Shown: piece after piece, positions 15,950 through 44,812 of the stretch
Layout: every line of letters begins with the position of its first letter
Numbering within the stretch: position 1 is the first letter of the stretch
From: Flavobacteriaceae bacterium
GTDB taxonomy: Bacteria > Bacteroidota > Bacteroidia > Flavobacteriales > Flavobacteriaceae
Assembly: GCA_016744415.1 (NCBI GenBank)
Contig: JADGEL010000005.1
Location: forward strand, 1 to 64,000
DNA: 64,000 nucleotides
Direction: 5' to 3'
Notes under the pieces: generated by a model
What the model saw: only the letters and a program-made list of their open reading frames with translations
Told to the model about the DNA's origin: nothing
Database searches by the model: none
Position numbers and translations under genes: made by a program

Positions 15950-16023
15950 GGCCTCGTGGCGCAACTGAATAGCGCACTTGATTACGGCTCAAGAGGTTAT
16001 AGGTTTGAATCCTATCGAGGTCA
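15950..16023 (+). tRNA. tRNA-Arg (anticodon ACG)
   Basis: 74-nt cloverleaf: acceptor GGCCTCG/CGAGGTC (one G-T), D-stem GCGC/GCGC, anticodon stem CTTGA/TCAAG with loop TTACGGC giving anticodon ACG, T-stem ATAGG/CCTAT with loop TTTGAAT, discriminator A. CCA is not encoded. A34 would be edited to inosine by TadA to read CGN codons. Confidence 0.95.
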
Positions 16024-16034
16024 CTAATGTTTAT

Positions 16035-16258: not shown

Positions 16259-16335
16259 ATGGTTCAATTTTGTAATTTTTTGAACTAAATGTACAAGTGT
16301 GTTCTTTTTACACTTCATAAATTTGACTAACTAAC
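16259..16335 (+). promoter_or_regulatory. Promoter module A, shared with 43489-43565
   Basis: About 77 bp, with only about nine mismatches to the region preceding the flavin oxidase gene (minus strand 43565-43489). Shared elements are an inverted repeat GTTCAA (16262-16267) / TTGAAC (16280-16285), a 19-bp identical block around it, and a TAAATTTG -7 box (16318-16325), 26 nt before the ATG. There is no -33 TTG, suggesting an activator. Confidence 0.75.
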
Positions 16336-16351
16336 ATAAAATCAAATTATT

Positions 16352-16897
16352 ATGAAAACAAAACTAGTATTAACAGTAATTCTAACATCTTTATTAATTT
16401 TTACAGGGTGTTCAGATAATGAGGACAATGTTCAAGATGTTCAAGATTTGGAATCGATTTCCCAAACTTATCCCCAAGAACAGCAAGAGGTCTTAGAAAC
16501 TTTTGGGGCCATTGCAGCAAGTATAACAGCCGGAGCTGGAAATGGACATGACGACCCATATATGGACGAACTTATCTCTTTTCATGCCTATGGAGCCAAG
16601 TTTACTGAATTCAATGATGGTCATGCTTATGATAGTGCGGGTAATGAAGAAAATGAACGTACGTTTTTTGGTGAAACAGTAGACCCAGGAGGAGTTGTGC
16701 AATTTGCCGCTATAGAAGGAACTTTAAAAGTTGCTGTATATTATGGGAATGTAGCTAATTTAACCTTTATCTCAGATTTTCATTTAATGATTGGTGGAAA
16801 TCTATATATAGTCAATAATCTAATTACTTTATTATTTGTTAAAACAAATGGTCAATGGAAAATGGTTCATGAACACCACTCACCATTCACACCATAG
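16352..16897 (+). CDS. NTF2-like (SnoaL-type) lipoprotein, paralogue of 41537-42046
   Basis: 181 residues with signal peptide MKTKLVLTVILTSLLIFTGC (lipobox FTGC) and a single NTF2-fold domain (about 40-178). It shares ELISFHAYGAKFTEFNDG, GNVANLTFISDFH and LLFVKTNGQWKMVHEHHSP almost word for word with the lipoprotein of the AraC/flavin-oxidase locus 25 kb away. The WKMVHEHHSP ending is typical of SnoaL-like proteins, which bind small ligands in a conical pocket. It sits alone behind the tRNA with the same promoter as its relative's operon; a role together with that operon is inferred. Confidence 0.85.
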   Translation: MKTKLVLTVILTSLLIFTGCSDNEDNVQDVQDLESISQTYPQEQQEVLETFGAIAASITAGAGNGHDDPYMDELISFHAYGAKFTEFNDGHAYDSAGNEENERTFFGETVDPGGVVQFAAIEGTLKVAVYYGNVANLTFISDFHLMIGGNLYIVNNLITLLFVKTNGQWKMVHEHHSPFTP

Positions 16898-16971: not shown

Positions 16972-16994
16972 GGTTTCATTTCTATCGAGGTCAC
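16972..16994 (+). repeat. Partial copy of the tRNA-Arg 3' end (att-like)
   Basis: 23 bases matching 16002-16024 (T-loop to discriminator of tRNA-Arg) at 20 of 23 positions, with 13 consecutive identical bases CTATCGAGGTCAC. The rest of a tRNA is absent. The repeats bracket the NTF2-like lipoprotein gene, about 970 bp apart. Confidence 0.65.
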
Positions 16995-17029
16995 AAAAAA
17001 AGAGATTGACAAATATCAATCTCTTTTTT
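16995..17029. terminator. Bidirectional intrinsic terminator
   Basis: AGAGATTGA / TCAATCTCT stem flanked by A6 and T6. It serves the NTF2-like gene on the plus strand and the small membrane genes on the minus strand. Confidence 0.8.
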
Positions 17030-39853: not shown

Positions 39854-41458
39854 ATGGCTCAAATTATAACAATGCCCAAATTAAGTGATACAATGACGGA
39901 AGGAGTTGTAGCTAGTTGGTTGAAAAAGGTAGGAGATAAAATTGAAGAAGGAGATATTCTTGCCGAAATTGAAACAGACAAAGCTACAATGGAATTTGAA
40001 GCTTTTGATGAAGGCACACTTTTATATATTGGCTTACAAGAAGGCGATACTGCTCCTGTTGATTCTCTATTGGCAATCATAGGTGAAGAAGGAGAAGATT
40101 ATTCAGCATTGTTAGCTGAGGGTAAAGCCACTCCAAAAGAAGAAACCGCAAAAGAAGAAAAGTCAGAATCAAAAGAAACTGCTGAAGATACTACTACTGA
40201 AACAAATTCAGTTGAGATTCCTGAAGGGGTTGTTGTGGTTACTATGCCTCGTTTGAGTGATACTATGACCGAAGGTACAGTTGCCTCTTGGCTAAAAAAG
40301 ATTGGTGATAAAGTTGATGAAGGTGATATTCTAGCAGAGATTGAAACAGATAAAGCTACAATGGAGTTTGAATCTTTTAATGAAGGTACCTTATTATATA
40401 TTGGATTGAATGAAGGAGATACCGCTGCAGTAGATTCTCTATTAGCAATTATTGGTGATGCCGGAACAAATGTTGACGACATCGTTAAAAACTTTAAAGT
40501 TGTAGGTAGTACAGATAAAAAAGAAGAATCCCCAAAGCAAGTTGAGCAAAAAATTACGCCTGTAAAAGTTGAAGCATCTTCTATACCAACGGCAAAATCA
40601 TCTGACGAAAGAGTGATTGCATCTCCTTTAGCTAAAAAATTAGCCGAAGAAAAAGGAATTAATTTATCGCAAATACAAGGAACTGGAGATCATGGCAGAA
40701 TCATAAAGCGTGATGTTGAAAATTATACATCTACTACTGCTGGAGTAGCTGTTGTGCAATTTGCACCAAGTGGAGTTGAAAATTTTGAGGAAATTAAAAA
40801 CTCACAAATGCGTAAAGCAATTGCAAAGGCTTTAACAACTTCTAAATTCTCTGCACCTCATTATTATTTAGCTGTAGAATTTGACATGGACAATGCGATT
40901 GCATTTAGAACACAATTCAATTCTATACCTGACACAAAAATCTCATTCAACGACATCATTGTAAAAGCAACAGCAAAAGCATTGAAACAACACCCTCAAG
41001 TAAATTCTCAATGGTTTAATGATAAAATGGTGTTAAACCACCATGTACATGTTGGAGTTGCAGTTGCTGTTGATGACGGTTTAGTTGTGCCAGTTGTAAA
41101 ATTTGCAGATGAGCAAAGCTTACCACAAATTGGTGCTGCTGTAAAAGATTATGCAGGAAGAGCTAGAACTAAAAAATTGACTCCAGAAGAAATGCAAGGA
41201 AGCACTTTTACCATTTCAAACTTAGGCATGTTTGGTATTGATTATTTTACTTCGATTATCAATCAACCAAATTCTGCTATTTTATCTGTTGGAGCAATTG
41301 TACAAAAACCAGTTGTGAAAAACGGTGAAATAGTTGTAGGAAATACTATGAAACTTACTTTAGCTTGTGACCATAGAACAGTTGATGGCGCTACAGGTTC
41401 TTTATTCTTACAGACATTAAAAGGATTTATTGAAAACCCTGTAACGATGTTAGTTTAA
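39854..41458 (+). CDS. pdhC: Pyruvate dehydrogenase E2, dihydrolipoamide acetyltransferase
   Basis: 534 residues in canonical order: two lipoyl domains (about 1-78 and 128-205, each with ETDKATMEFE carrying the lipoylated Lys), Ala/Glu/Lys-rich linkers, E1/E3-binding domain (about 250-288: ASPLAKKLAEEKGINLSQIQGTGDHGRI), and the catalytic domain ending in the active-site ACDHRTVDGATG (His-Asp). It moves acetyl groups from E1 to CoA. The lipoyl domains are near-duplicates at DNA level as well. Confidence 0.96.
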   Translation: MAQIITMPKLSDTMTEGVVASWLKKVGDKIEEGDILAEIETDKATMEFEAFDEGTLLYIGLQEGDTAPVDSLLAIIGEEGEDYSALLAEGKATPKEETAKEEKSESKETAEDTTTETNSVEIPEGVVVVTMPRLSDTMTEGTVASWLKKIGDKVDEGDILAEIETDKATMEFESFNEGTLLYIGLNEGDTAAVDSLLAIIGDAGTNVDDIVKNFKVVGSTDKKEESPKQVEQKITPVKVEASSIPTAKSSDERVIASPLAKKLAEEKGINLSQIQGTGDHGRIIKRDVENYTSTTAGVAVVQFAPSGVENFEEIKNSQMRKAIAKALTTSKFSAPHYYLAVEFDMDNAIAFRTQFNSIPDTKISFNDIIVKATAKALKQHPQVNSQWFNDKMVLNHHVHVGVAVAVDDGLVVPVVKFADEQSLPQIGAAVKDYAGRARTKKLTPEEMQGSTFTISNLGMFGIDYFTSIINQPNSAILSVGAIVQKPVVKNGEIVVGNTMKLTLACDHRTVDGATGSLFLQTLKGFIENPVTMLV

Positions 41459-41480
41459 TTAGAATTACTTTAATAAATAT

Positions 41481-41514
41481 AAAATCCCATCAGCAATAAA
41501 GTTGATGGGATTTT
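41481..41514. terminator. Bidirectional terminator after pdhC
   Basis: AAAATCCCATCA (41481-41492) and TGATGGGATTTT (41503-41514), 12-bp perfect stem between convergent genes. Confidence 0.85.
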
Positions 41515-41536
41515 ATATTTATTAACTTATTCTCTA

Positions 41537-42046
41537 TTATCCTTTCTTTAAAGGAGAGTGATGCTCGTGAACCATTTTCCATCCAGTATCTGTCTTTACA
41601 AATAACAACGTAATTTGATCATTTACAATTACTAAATCTTCCCCAAATTTTAAATGAAAATCTGAGTGAAAGGTTAGATTGGCTACATCACCATATACTG
41701 CAATTTGTAAATCTTTTGCATCAAATTTTACCACTTCGGTTACAGCACCAAAAACATTACGTTCATGAGCTTCATTTGCTTCACTTCCGTTACGAGGCTC
41801 ACCACTTTTAAATTCGGTAAATTTTGGACTATAAGCATGAAAAGCAATGAGTTTATCTAAATCTCCGTCTTTAATACTTTGAGCAATTTCTCCAAAGGTT
41901 TGCATTACTTCCTGTTTTGCTTCGGGAAATTCATCATTTACCAAATCAATTTTTACTTCTTTACTTTCTGATTGTTTTTTTGCTTTTTCACATGCTCCAC
42001 TAAAAATTAGTAAAACTAATACGAACAGAATTTTTAAATCTTTCAT
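41537..42046 (-). CDS. NTF2-like (SnoaL-type) lipoprotein, paralogue of 16352-16897
   Basis: 169 residues. Signal MKDLKILFVLVLLIFSGAC (lipobox SGAC), polar linker, NTF2-fold domain (about 40-165: QEVMQTFGEIAQSIKDGDLDKLIAFHAYSPKFTEF, VFGAVTEVVKFDAKDLQIAVYGDVANLTFHSDFH, LLFVKTDTGWKMVHEHHSP). Last gene of a three-gene series after the flavin oxidase. The paralogue at 16352 shares the C-terminal third almost completely and the oxidase's promoter. A ligand-binding or helper role in the envelope is inferred. Confidence 0.87.
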   Translation of the reverse strand: MKDLKILFVLVLLIFSGACEKAKKQSESKEVKIDLVNDEFPEAKQEVMQTFGEIAQSIKDGDLDKLIAFHAYSPKFTEFKSGEPRNGSEANEAHERNVFGAVTEVVKFDAKDLQIAVYGDVANLTFHSDFHLKFGEDLVIVNDQITLLFVKTDTGWKMVHEHHSPLKKG

Positions 42047-42080
42047 TTTTATTATAATTTTAGTTATTGTTTCTTATTAA

Positions 42081-43472
42081 TTAAGATTTCGGCTTTATAT
42101 TCTGATTCACTCTAAAGAAATTAGTAGGGTCGTATTTTGCTTTAATTTGAGTTAATCTCTCATAATTATGCTTATAGCTAGCCATCACTCGTTCCTGTCC
42201 TTCATCCATCATAAAATTAGAATAAGCTCCTCCTGAAGAATATGGGTGCAATGCATTGTAATAGTCTTTACACCATGTTGTAATTTTATCAGCATTAGAC
42301 GGGTTTGGATCTACACCAACTATAACACCAGCATAATTTGCATCGCGATATGCCCAAGGAGTTTCTTCTGCTCCAACTCTACTTGCCACACCACTAATAG
42401 GATACAAGTGCATTTGAGATAATGGTGTTGGAATTTTAGATCCAAATTTTAAATGTTGAGCTCTAATTTCTGGGCCTAATTCATTAAAGAAATCCGCTCT
42501 CCAATACCATTGCATTCCTGGGGGCATTAAGCCATCAAATAAGGTTTGAATTGCTGGATAAGGCATTTCGCCCACATGTTCAAATACAGGTTCTAGATCT
42601 CTAACTGGTTTAAATAACTTTTCAAACTTATCTGAGTCGCCTGTATAACACCAAACGATTCCGCAATATTGATTTCCATGTAAAAAATCTGGAAACGGTG
42701 GCCCTGGAATTATCATAGTCGCAATAAAACCATTTAAATCATCCTCGGCATTTATTAAAAACTCATGGTACCATTCCATAATTTCCTCAGTTCTTTCTAT
42801 AGGAAATAATGTTGGCCCGCCAATAACAGTTTTTACAGGATGAGCTTGAAATTTAAATGAAGTTACAATTCCGAAATTTCCACCTCCACCTCTTATAGCC
42901 CAAAACAAATCTGAATACTGTTCTTTATCTACAGTTACAAAAGAACCATCTGCCAAAACCATATCAGCCTCTAATAAATTGTCAATTGTCAACCCATACT
43001 TACGAGATAAATGACCAACTCCACCACCAAGTGTTAAACCACCTACTCCGGTAGTTGAGATAATTCCTGCAGGAACCGCTAACCCAAATGGATGAGTAGC
43101 ATGATCCACTTCTCCCCACAGATTTCCACCACCTACTCTTACTGTATTATCTGAAGTGTTAACACGAATAAATTTTAATCCAGATAAATCTATAACCATT
43201 CCGTCATCACAAAGCCCGAGACCACCTCCGTTATGACCTCCTCCTCTAACTGCAACAAGTAAATTATTCTCTCGTCCGAAATTAACAGCATTCATAACAT
43301 CAGCTACATCAACACACATTACAAACATTCCTGGATATTTGTTAATCATCCCGTTATACACTTTTCGTGTTTCATTAAAGTCTGCATCTTGGGGCATTAC
43401 AATGTTCCCTCTTAAACTTGAAGCAAATTCTTTAAGACTTGAAGCTTCTAAATTCTTTACTAGTTTTGACAT
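42081..43472 (-). CDS. FAD-binding oxidoreductase, berberine-bridge/6-HDNO type
   Basis: 463 residues of the VAO/PCMH flavoprotein family: FAD domain (about 25-205) with AVRGGGHNGGG, where H80 is the expected covalent 8-alpha link, and TLGGGVGHLSRKYGLTIDN; substrate domain; and a BBE tail (about 405-455: NALHPYSSGGAYSNFM, YDPTNFFRVNQNI). In bicovalent relatives a Cys sits in the aGiC-x-x-G loop; here it is Ile138 (PAGIISTTGVGG), so a single covalent bond, as in 6-hydroxynicotine oxidases, is expected. No signal peptide. Lies between its likely regulator and an NTF2-like lipoprotein; substrate unknown. Confidence 0.92.
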   Translation of the reverse strand: MSKLVKNLEASSLKEFASSLRGNIVMPQDADFNETRKVYNGMINKYPGMFVMCVDVADVMNAVNFGRENNLLVAVRGGGHNGGGLGLCDDGMVIDLSGLKFIRVNTSDNTVRVGGGNLWGEVDHATHPFGLAVPAGIISTTGVGGLTLGGGVGHLSRKYGLTIDNLLEADMVLADGSFVTVDKEQYSDLFWAIRGGGGNFGIVTSFKFQAHPVKTVIGGPTLFPIERTEEIMEWYHEFLINAEDDLNGFIATMIIPGPPFPDFLHGNQYCGIVWCYTGDSDKFEKLFKPVRDLEPVFEHVGEMPYPAIQTLFDGLMPPGMQWYWRADFFNELGPEIRAQHLKFGSKIPTPLSQMHLYPISGVASRVGAEETPWAYRDANYAGVIVGVDPNPSNADKITTWCKDYYNALHPYSSGGAYSNFMMDEGQERVMASYKHNYERLTQIKAKYDPTNFFRVNQNIKPKS

Positions 43473-43488
43473 AAAATTATAGTTTTAG

Positions 43489-43565
43489 GTTAGTTAGCCA
43501 AATTTAGGAAGTAAAAAAAGAGCACTCTTATACATTTAGTTCAAAAAATAACAATATTGAACCAT
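43489..43565 (-). promoter_or_regulatory. Promoter module B, shared with 16259-16335
   Basis: Read on the minus strand it matches 16259-16335 at all but about nine of 77 positions, including ATTTTTTGAACTAAATGTA, the GTTCAA/TTGAAC inverted repeat and a TAAATTTG -7 box (43499-43506). The box is 26 nt before the oxidase ATG. It lies between the regulator gene and the oxidase gene. Confidence 0.78.
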
Positions 43566-43589
43566 TATAGAATATAACAAATAAAATAC

Positions 43590-44696
43590 TTAATAAATAT
43601 GTTGCTGTGTATATTTTGAAGGTAAAATTCCAAATTTTTCATAAAAGCATTTTGTAAAATATGCTGGACTGTTAAAACCTACTTCAAAAGCAATCTCTGA
43701 TACATTTCCAAGTCTATCATGAAATAAGTTTAAGGATTTATTTAGCTTAATGTCTTTTATAAAATTATTTGGAGACTTATCAGTTAATCGTTTTAATTTC
43801 CTATACAATTGAGATTTACTAAGTCCTAATTCTTGACTTAAAGTTTCAACCTTTATATTAGGAGAACTCCATATACCTTCAACATGATTCATCAACTTGG
43901 TAATAAACTTCTCCTCTTTTGGAGTTAAGGTTCTAATTAAACGATCATCTAACTTAAGGTTTCTATTCTCAATTATAAACGAATGGTGTACATCGTTAGA
44001 AATTACTATCTCACTTTTTACTATTTCACACATTCTTGTAACAAGTGATATTGTTTCTTCAAACAGTCCCTTTTTAGAAGTTACAGGTGTTCCTGTTCCA
44101 ATACCAATATTTAGTACTCTGTTCTTTTTATCAAATTTAGGTGTAACAAAATTAATATTAGATCTTAACTTCAATGCAGTAAAAACAGCGTTAGATACTG
44201 TCTCAAAAGATACCAAATAAGAGCAATCATCTTGCTTTACAACTGTGCCTTCAAACTTCTTTAAGGTTTTCAACACACTTCGATGAAACTTTTGAGTAAA
44301 AATACTTAATTGATTTGCCTCTGCCCTATTAAAAAAGTTATTCGTCTCAATAAGCATAATTGCCCTAAAAGCTGAATCATCAATAATATTTAATTCGGAT
44401 TTCGATGTGTTTTTAGGATCTTTAATACGCCCCAAAAAAGAGGCTACCAAATTTTCATCAACTTCGATTATACTATGAGGAAACTCACCATGCGCATGAT
44501 CGTGCATTTTTTGTATAGCTTCCTTATTTGGTGCTTCAATTAAACAAAATGCTGTATGTCTTTTGTCATCACACCAATAAGTCCTCCCTTTACATCCAAA
44601 TAAATGTTCAACTTCCATATCTACTTTATGCATTTCGGCTACATGTTCAGCAGATATTTCTTTGGGGATATCGTGGCGATCCATAAAAAGTGGCAT
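43590..44696 (-). CDS. DUF4242 / cyclase-like / AraC-HTH fusion regulator
   Basis: 368 residues with three parts. 1-90 is a DUF4242 domain (MPLFMDRHDIPKEISAEHVAEMHKVDMEVEHLFGCKGRTYWCDD, HAHGEFPHSIIEVDE) with His/Cys clusters; homologues are proposed nickel-binding proteins. About 105-240 resembles a degenerate class III nucleotide-cyclase fold (LKKFEGTVVKQDDCSYLVSFETVSNAVFTALKLR, LNIGIGTGTPV, LFEETISLVTRMCEIVKS) without the usual metal Asp pair. About 262-368 is an AraC HTH (VETLSQELGLSKSQLYRKLKRLTDKSPNNFI, SEIAFEVGFNSPAYFTKCFYEKFGILPSKYTQQ). It probably activates the oxidase promoter 25 bp downstream and its copy at 16259. Confidence 0.85.
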   Translation of the reverse strand: MPLFMDRHDIPKEISAEHVAEMHKVDMEVEHLFGCKGRTYWCDDKRHTAFCLIEAPNKEAIQKMHDHAHGEFPHSIIEVDENLVASFLGRIKDPKNTSKSELNIIDDSAFRAIMLIETNNFFNRAEANQLSIFTQKFHRSVLKTLKKFEGTVVKQDDCSYLVSFETVSNAVFTALKLRSNINFVTPKFDKKNRVLNIGIGTGTPVTSKKGLFEETISLVTRMCEIVKSEIVISNDVHHSFIIENRNLKLDDRLIRTLTPKEEKFITKLMNHVEGIWSSPNIKVETLSQELGLSKSQLYRKLKRLTDKSPNNFIKDIKLNKSLNLFHDRLGNVSEIAFEVGFNSPAYFTKCFYEKFGILPSKYTQQHIY

Positions 44697-44782
44697 AGGT
44701 AATAATTTTATTGCAATATAGTAAATTTAGGTCATTTTTACAATAATGAATTAATTCACAGACAGTTGTACATTACCCAATA

Positions 44783-44812
44783 AAAAAGCCTCAACTTTCG
44801 TTGAGGCTTTTA
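44783..44812 (-). terminator. Terminator of rpmE2
   Basis: AAAAGCCTCAAC / GTTGAGGCTTTT with a TTTC loop and T/A runs on both sides. Confidence 0.88.

Follow-up and report, generated by a model that had tools for sequence, protein, structure and literature searches.

Regulators of the AraC type are mostly activators. In flavobacteria, promoters carry a -7 box, and the available parts of the papers that describe it give its consensus as TAnnTTTG at -12 to -5 (PMC9723704, PMC6847099). A further relevant protein is SCO4226, for which the available part of its description lists His3, His12, His23, Glu38, Asp43, Ser46 and His76 as ligands of the nickel sites Ni-1 to Ni-3 (PMC4186839). The locus discussed here lies in a window of 64,000 nucleotides, by which we mean the whole stretch of DNA that was analysed. 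Judged by its relatives, the genome belongs to the Flavobacteriaceae. The kind of control, AraC-type, is a known one, but the sensor architecture and the target set are new. We found no described system of this composition in open-licence PMC papers, which is consistent with what an earlier note on this DNA had stated.

A block of 77 bp occurs twice in the window, at 43565-43489 on the minus strand and at 16259-16335 on the plus strand, and in a direct alignment the two copies mismatch at 9 of 77 positions. Elsewhere in the window, the best ungapped matches are 41/77 to the first copy and 40/77 to the second. The upstream flanks are identical at 3-8 of 20 positions in each of five 20-nt steps. 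Downstream, the step that starts at the end of the block gives 13/20, and later steps give 7, 7 and 9 of 20 and then 6/17. The claim of the earlier note that two near-identical promoters lie 27 kb apart in unrelated flanks is thus borne out. So are the features that it ascribed to both: the -7 box TAAATTTG (43499-43506, minus strand; 16318-16325, plus strand, at the same spacing as in the first copy), a distance of 26 nt from the box to the ATG, and the lack of a TTG at -33, since none lies between operator and box in either copy. The predicted starts, near 43494(-) and 16330(+), are 22 nt before the ATG in both. The exact dyad GTTCAA-N12-TTGAAC is present at two places in the 3,133,816 bases of the genome, and these are the two reported copies; allowing one mismatch adds 13 places, a number close to the 12 of a backward control. 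We read the shared block as a real regulatory element.

Pfam matches confirm the identities that had been proposed for the genes around it. The first copy precedes, on the minus strand, a FAD-linked BBE-type oxidase of 463 aa (42081-43472; FAD_binding_4 and BBE) and LP1, an SnoaL_3/NTF2-like lipoprotein of 169 aa (41537-42046). The second precedes LP2, an SnoaL_3 lipoprotein of 181 aa on the plus strand (16352-16897), which is a paralogue of LP1 with 46% identity. LP2-type lipoproteins also occur in other surroundings. Two of them (L165 and L168, in G313 and G070) stand directly behind hybrid kinase-AraC regulators of 915 and 958 aa, and that of G070 is a two-domain fused form.

The adjacent regulator, which we call REG, is an AraC-type fusion protein of 368 aa encoded at 43590-44696 on the minus strand. 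It has three domains: a DUF4242/SCO4226-like domain (residues 4-79), a class III cyclase-fold domain (about 108-250) and an AraC-type HTH (about 257-365). The first matches PF14026 with 65.6 bits (curated cut-off 28.5) as well as PDB 4oi3, and the last matches HTH_18 with 61.5 bits (cut-off 33.6), HTH_AraC with 49 bits (cut-off 26.6) and AraC-type PDB entries. The cyclase fold in the middle comes from a PDB profile match and, among the folds listed, from structure comparison by VIA-align; because the VIA-align rows mostly cover residues 81-273, the assignments of DUF4242 and HTH rest on sequence profiles. No histidine kinase or receiver domain was matched in Pfam up to E 1.

Positions 117 and 158, according to an alignment to 3mr7, are what we take to be the metal-binding aspartate positions of class III cyclases. 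In the alignment of 51 proteins, position 117 is E in 28, and position 158 is N in 21 and D in 14. Since the aspartates are not kept, the domain is probably non-catalytic, and the idea of REG as a catalytic cyclase is unsupported. Nickel sensing is unsupported as well: of the Ni-1 to Ni-3 ligands named in the available part of the SCO4226 paper, only His23 and Asp43 are kept (in 51/51 aligned proteins), and REG carries L, K, R, R and I at positions 3, 12, 38, 46 and 76. At these five positions the aligned residues shown for the other proteins deviate from the ligands too.

The relationship between REG and the block can be followed across species. At least 80 loci with relatives of REG were collected from 84,980 species genomes. 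Among the matches listed, the REG gene is full-length in 78 of 80 loci, and in 73 of these 78 the same 35-bp site, with the consensus TGATTCAAAATTGTAATTTTTTGAATTAAATGTAG, lies within 240 nt after REG. In the window this putative operator occupies 43530-43564 on the minus strand in the oxidase promoter (half-sites 43563-43551 and 43542-43530) and 16260-16294 on the plus strand in the LP2 promoter (half-sites 16261-16273 and 16282-16294). Four of the five remaining loci among the matches listed have the site farther downstream. Three of them (L064, L092 and L106) have two regulator genes in direct tandem, of which the second has diverged (28-31% identity to REG), and the operator sits after this second gene (21.1 in L064, 9.6 and 15.1 in L092, 20.6 in L106); in L084 it is found 285 nt after REG (21.1). 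L058 (= G007:C89), an orthologue from the same genus with 76-78% identity, has no operator within the 239 nt that remain on its contig. At a locus of G005 (L049, 6214-7334) REG is split into two adjacent ORFs, one with the DUF4242 part and one with the cyclase fold and HTH, and both the operator and the oxidase are retained. Two regulators without the DUF4242 domain, of about 250-260 aa (L047 and L048, in G021 and G018), have genes for pyruvate dehydrogenase, a peptidase and a short-chain dehydrogenase as neighbours, with no match of 9 or more to the position weight matrix (PWM) of the operator.

The conserved footprint includes the core promoter. Among the matches listed, TAnnTTT(G/A) stands exactly 23 nt past the site in 59 of 73 loci, and the strict TAnnTTTG does so in 25 of 73. 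When the matches listed were thinned to 35 loci with under 75% REG identity, the two half-sites held 0.87 and 1.02 bits per base and the box 1.01. The spacer held 0.15 and the outside 0.08-0.18, with a null of 0.06. Such a profile bears on the suggestion that the 77-bp similarity reflects a mere recent duplication, or a housekeeping promoter that has been conserved, and carries no information on co-regulation. We consider this very improbable. The two copies do share 18 of 23 bases in a spacer that is otherwise hardly conserved. The 99th percentile for pairs among 77 other sites is 15 (the maximum, with near-identical strains included, is 23), and the spacer of one other species shares 17 with the LP2 copy. 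That both copies have a recent common origin is likely, and so is a recent promoter duplication. But the half-sites and the box are kept, while their surroundings drift, across loci whose REG is down to 46% identical to the one here; full-length copies in the genome number only two; and a duplication would have brought a working operator along with it.

How specific is the site? A PWM made from other species' loci scores 24.9 for the oxidase operator and 26.9 for the LP2 operator, and the next-best chance match in the window scores 9.8. For searches of whole genomes we used R1, a sequence-only model made from 54 of the 73 sites, with near copies thinned out and none taken from this genome. Over the whole 3.13-Mb genome its best match is the LP2 copy, at 16259 (45 bits, E 2.9e-11), followed by the oxidase copy at 43499 (41 bits, E 5.5e-10). 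There is no third full-length site in the 3.13 Mb; the next match has 18.2 bits and covers model positions 11-61 only. A motif scattered in front of unrelated genes, which the earlier note had seen as the danger to its proposal, is not what the full-length matches in this genome show, and a regulon of two promoters is predicted.

In 60 genomes (this one and its relatives), sites of at least 24 bits are found in G000 (two), G012, G037, G005, G010, G003 and G014, and a partial match in G032. All of the sites at this level adjoin REG except the LP2 copy; on the G003 contig it is only the C-terminal part of REG, and in G005 the split one. In 299 genomes of the family, R1 gave 42 sites in 39 genomes at E <= 1e-4. 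A REG-like protein is encoded in 37 of these 39 genomes vs 76 of all 299 (Fisher p 1.3e-23), and 37 of the 42 sites adjoin REG on the same strand, 30 downstream and 7 upstream of it. The other five are the LP2 copy, one site each in G149 and G032, which lie inside ORFs and were taken as false, one in G247:C13 upstream of an ORF of 461 aa, and one in G076. The last precedes genes for a stand-alone DUF4242 protein and a cupin-like protein at 1.08 Mb, and the sole REG found in that genome is at 2.16 Mb; G076 is thus, to judge from these predicted positions, a second, independent case of an operator distant from REG, as at 16259 here. G068 and G281 have the operator in front of a DUF4242-REG gene pair, an arrangement that suggests autoregulation of REG in these two genomes. 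Counting against the link between operator and REG, R1 finds nothing at E <= 1e-4 in 39 of the 76 genomes that encode a REG-like protein, the REG-like set extending up to E 1e-15 and including distant paralogues and forms without DUF4242. The count of sites adjoining REG is partly circular, because the training sites of R1 were themselves neighbours of REG. Out-of-sample support comes from the two sites of this genome, from the G076 site and from the rarity of sites in genomes without REG.

The earlier note had attributed both promoters to the AraC-type protein encoded next to one of them, and the association of REG with the operator, together with the fact that the only two full-length R1 sites of the genome are these two, supports the attribution. 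We give a probability of roughly 0.82 to the link between REG and the operator and to joint control of both promoters, as far as sequence comparison can speak to it. Might the LP2 copy nevertheless be bound by another protein, for instance a hybrid two-component AraC regulator? LP2-type lipoproteins do lie directly behind AraC-type HTH genes in G313, G070, G060 and G084. But no PWM match of 9 or more is found in the stretches analysed around those four, except one of 10.5 in G084 that is away from its lipoproteins, and a model built on the REG operators of other species scores the LP2 copy highest in the whole genome. We would be surprised if a different protein were the answer.

If REG controls LP2 from a distance, the surroundings of LP2 hint at how this may have come about. 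LP2 and its operator lie within a 970-bp insert that is bracketed by copies of the 3' end of a tRNA-Arg gene. On the left is tRNA-Arg(acg) itself (15950-16024, plus strand, found by ARAGORN), and on the right its 3' end recurs (16972-16997, plus strand, 26 nt, 85%). With a limit of three mismatches, 3'-end copies are found in G018 and G037, at 211 and 86 bp. By eye, and below that limit, a copy resembling the right-hand one follows after 133 bp in G007, and a weaker one after 112 bp in G012. No second copy downstream was seen in G002, G005, G010, G001, G009, G006, G004 or G015. Relatives carry at this place either shorter inserts, of about 112 and 133 bp, or none. The LP2 stretch has the look of an insertion at a tRNA 3' end that is specific to this lineage. 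Alternatively, a duplicated tRNA may have decayed; G016 and G037 carry two such tRNAs.

The dyad noticed at the outset is literally present in both copies; as the element that is recognized, a tandem direct repeat with a period of 21 bp is preferable, and we hold it to be probable. Column profiles correlate at 0.76 over 14 columns at a shift of 21, and at no more than 0.18 at other shifts from 14 to 27. An inverted reading of the core also correlates, at 0.75 over 9 columns, and within single sites bases match at 0.65 over 9 columns in the inverted vs 0.58 over 13 in the direct arrangement; both rates are near the expectation from column frequencies (0.64 and 0.56). Only the direct repeat accounts for the near-invariant outer bases G2/G23 and T12/T33. 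Nor does a dyad explain G003 and G081, where GGTCTAAA stands in each half-site in the same orientation. In the six sites listed with a right half of the GGTC or GATC type, direct vs inverted matches are 7/13 vs 2/9 (L114), 5/13 vs 3/9 (L121), 11/13 vs 6/9 (G081), 9/13 vs 5/9 (G014), 8/13 vs 6/9 (G026) and 10/13 vs 6/9 (G003). We regard the dyad as possible but doubtful. As to the protein side, six regulators with the helix SKSK(L/F)YRT (G014, G026, G003, G081, G068 and G281) have right half-sites that begin with GGTC or GGAY, and SKSQ-type helices are mostly paired with GAAY half-sites among 18 rows; L114, L136 and L067 are exceptions, being SKSQ-type with GGTC or GGAT half-sites. An unbiased mutual-information scan of protein against site did not favour the HTH, which made up 32% of the top 200 pairs; co-variation was uninformative overall.

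We can now suggest how the system may work. The shared block would consist of an operator and a core promoter for REG. Two HTH units, probably those of a dimer joined via the cyclase-fold domain, would bind the tandem direct repeat, whose half-site is about GAAYTAAAWGT with a 21-bp period, at about -70 to -36 (predicted half-sites at about -69 to -57 and -48 to -36). With the proximal half-site centred near -42, REG would be placed beside RNA polymerase at TAnnTTTG, an arrangement like that of class II activation. Contact of a ligand or metal with the DUF4242/cyclase-fold sensor would shift the transcription of both units, oxidase-LP1 and LP2, together, most likely upward. We infer binding, dimerisation, co-expression and activation rather than repression.

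From the position of the operator by itself, either sign of control could be read. With the same operator and the same regulator, REG could be mainly a repressor, or a dual regulator, that blocks the promoter until its ligand arrives, and an operator in front of the DUF4242-REG pair in G068 and G281 would suit negative as well as positive autoregulation. This is unlikely: besides the general habit of AraC-type proteins, the operator lies entirely upstream of the -7 box with the centre of its proximal half-site near -42, an arrangement more usual for activators. The missing -33 element tells us little. It is indeed absent from both copies, and its absence appears to be general in the operator set, where at most 9 of 73 sites among the matches listed have a TTG that begins 18 to 26 nt ahead of the box. 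As a sign of dependence on an activator it is weak, because in F. johnsoniae the -33 motif is little evident across promoters, according to the available part of PMC6847099. The oxidase leader showed no RNA structure beyond chance (z 1.02), and a Sigma-70-type scan of 41400-44800, with a model ill-suited to this phylum, stayed at chance level.

Which genes does REG govern? First genes past the operator were tallied for the 67 of 73 operator loci that have a called downstream ORF, with Pfam run on one representative each. Among the matches listed they are a truncated globin in 23, the oxidase in 18, a DUF4242 protein in 12 and a cupin in 11, with one nitrilase, one cupin-like protein (by eye, without a Pfam match) and one other. 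A homologue of the oxidase is present in the flank of 52 of 80 REG loci among the matches listed, and some of the 28 without one have little flanking DNA left. The lipoprotein adjoins REG in this genome and in G003, G081, G085, G160 (interrupted there) and G210, and it lies within 10 kb of a REG-like gene in 11 of 49 lipoprotein-bearing genomes. The usual partners are thus oxidase, truncated globin, stand-alone DUF4242 and cupins, and the lipoprotein is an occasional one. The earlier note had joined oxidase and lipoproteins into one response and had looked to related genomes for the trio. As a predicted local version this stands, and REG, oxidase and lipoprotein do occur together in G003, G081, G160 and G210; across species, the set is that of the usual partners. 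In this genome PF14026 finds REG only, with no stand-alone DUF4242 protein elsewhere, and a PF01152 search finds no truncated globin, so that the target set here seems to consist of just the oxidase, LP1 and LP2.

A broader suggestion can be made, tentatively. The system may be a widespread module of Flavobacteriaceae in which a sensor made of DUF4242 and a degenerate cyclase, fused to an AraC domain, responds to a small ligand by turning on, via a fixed operator, a flavin oxidase-globin-DUF4242-cupin response, and new members are recruited by operator-bearing cassettes at a tRNA 3' end, as LP2 would have been. Whatever the case, a type of regulator that combines DUF4242, a cyclase fold and AraC, and whose function we found described nowhere, gains a predicted DNA site and a short list of targets, conserved in many Flavobacteriaceae. 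Both the signal of DUF4242 sensor proteins and the substrate of the BBE-type oxidase thereby become approachable via one reporter. It may be, too, that an insert at a tRNA gene added a member to the regulon here.

Several known systems resemble this one in part. Like the AraC/XylS activators AraC, SoxS, MarA and Rns, REG has a C-terminal AraC-type HTH; unlike them, it has a sensor of DUF4242 and a cyclase fold and would work with the -7 box of Bacteroidota as core promoter. Its putative site upstream of the core promoter has two parts with a period of 21 bp and may be read as a tandem repeat like theirs, though on 9 columns an inverted reading of the core does about equally well. In position, the predicted half-site at about -48 to -36 would fit a class II activator-dependent promoter. 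The hybrid two-component AraC regulators of Bacteroidota share the AraC HTH, and in G313 and G070 similar lipoproteins follow their genes, but REG has no Pfam match to a kinase or receiver. With the class III cyclases Ma1120, Cya2 and CyaB, REG shares the fold and differs at the aspartate-aligned positions 117 and 158. Its N-terminal domain is like SCO4226 of Streptomyces coelicolor, as far as the available part of PMC4186839 describes that protein, but in REG this domain is fused to a regulator.
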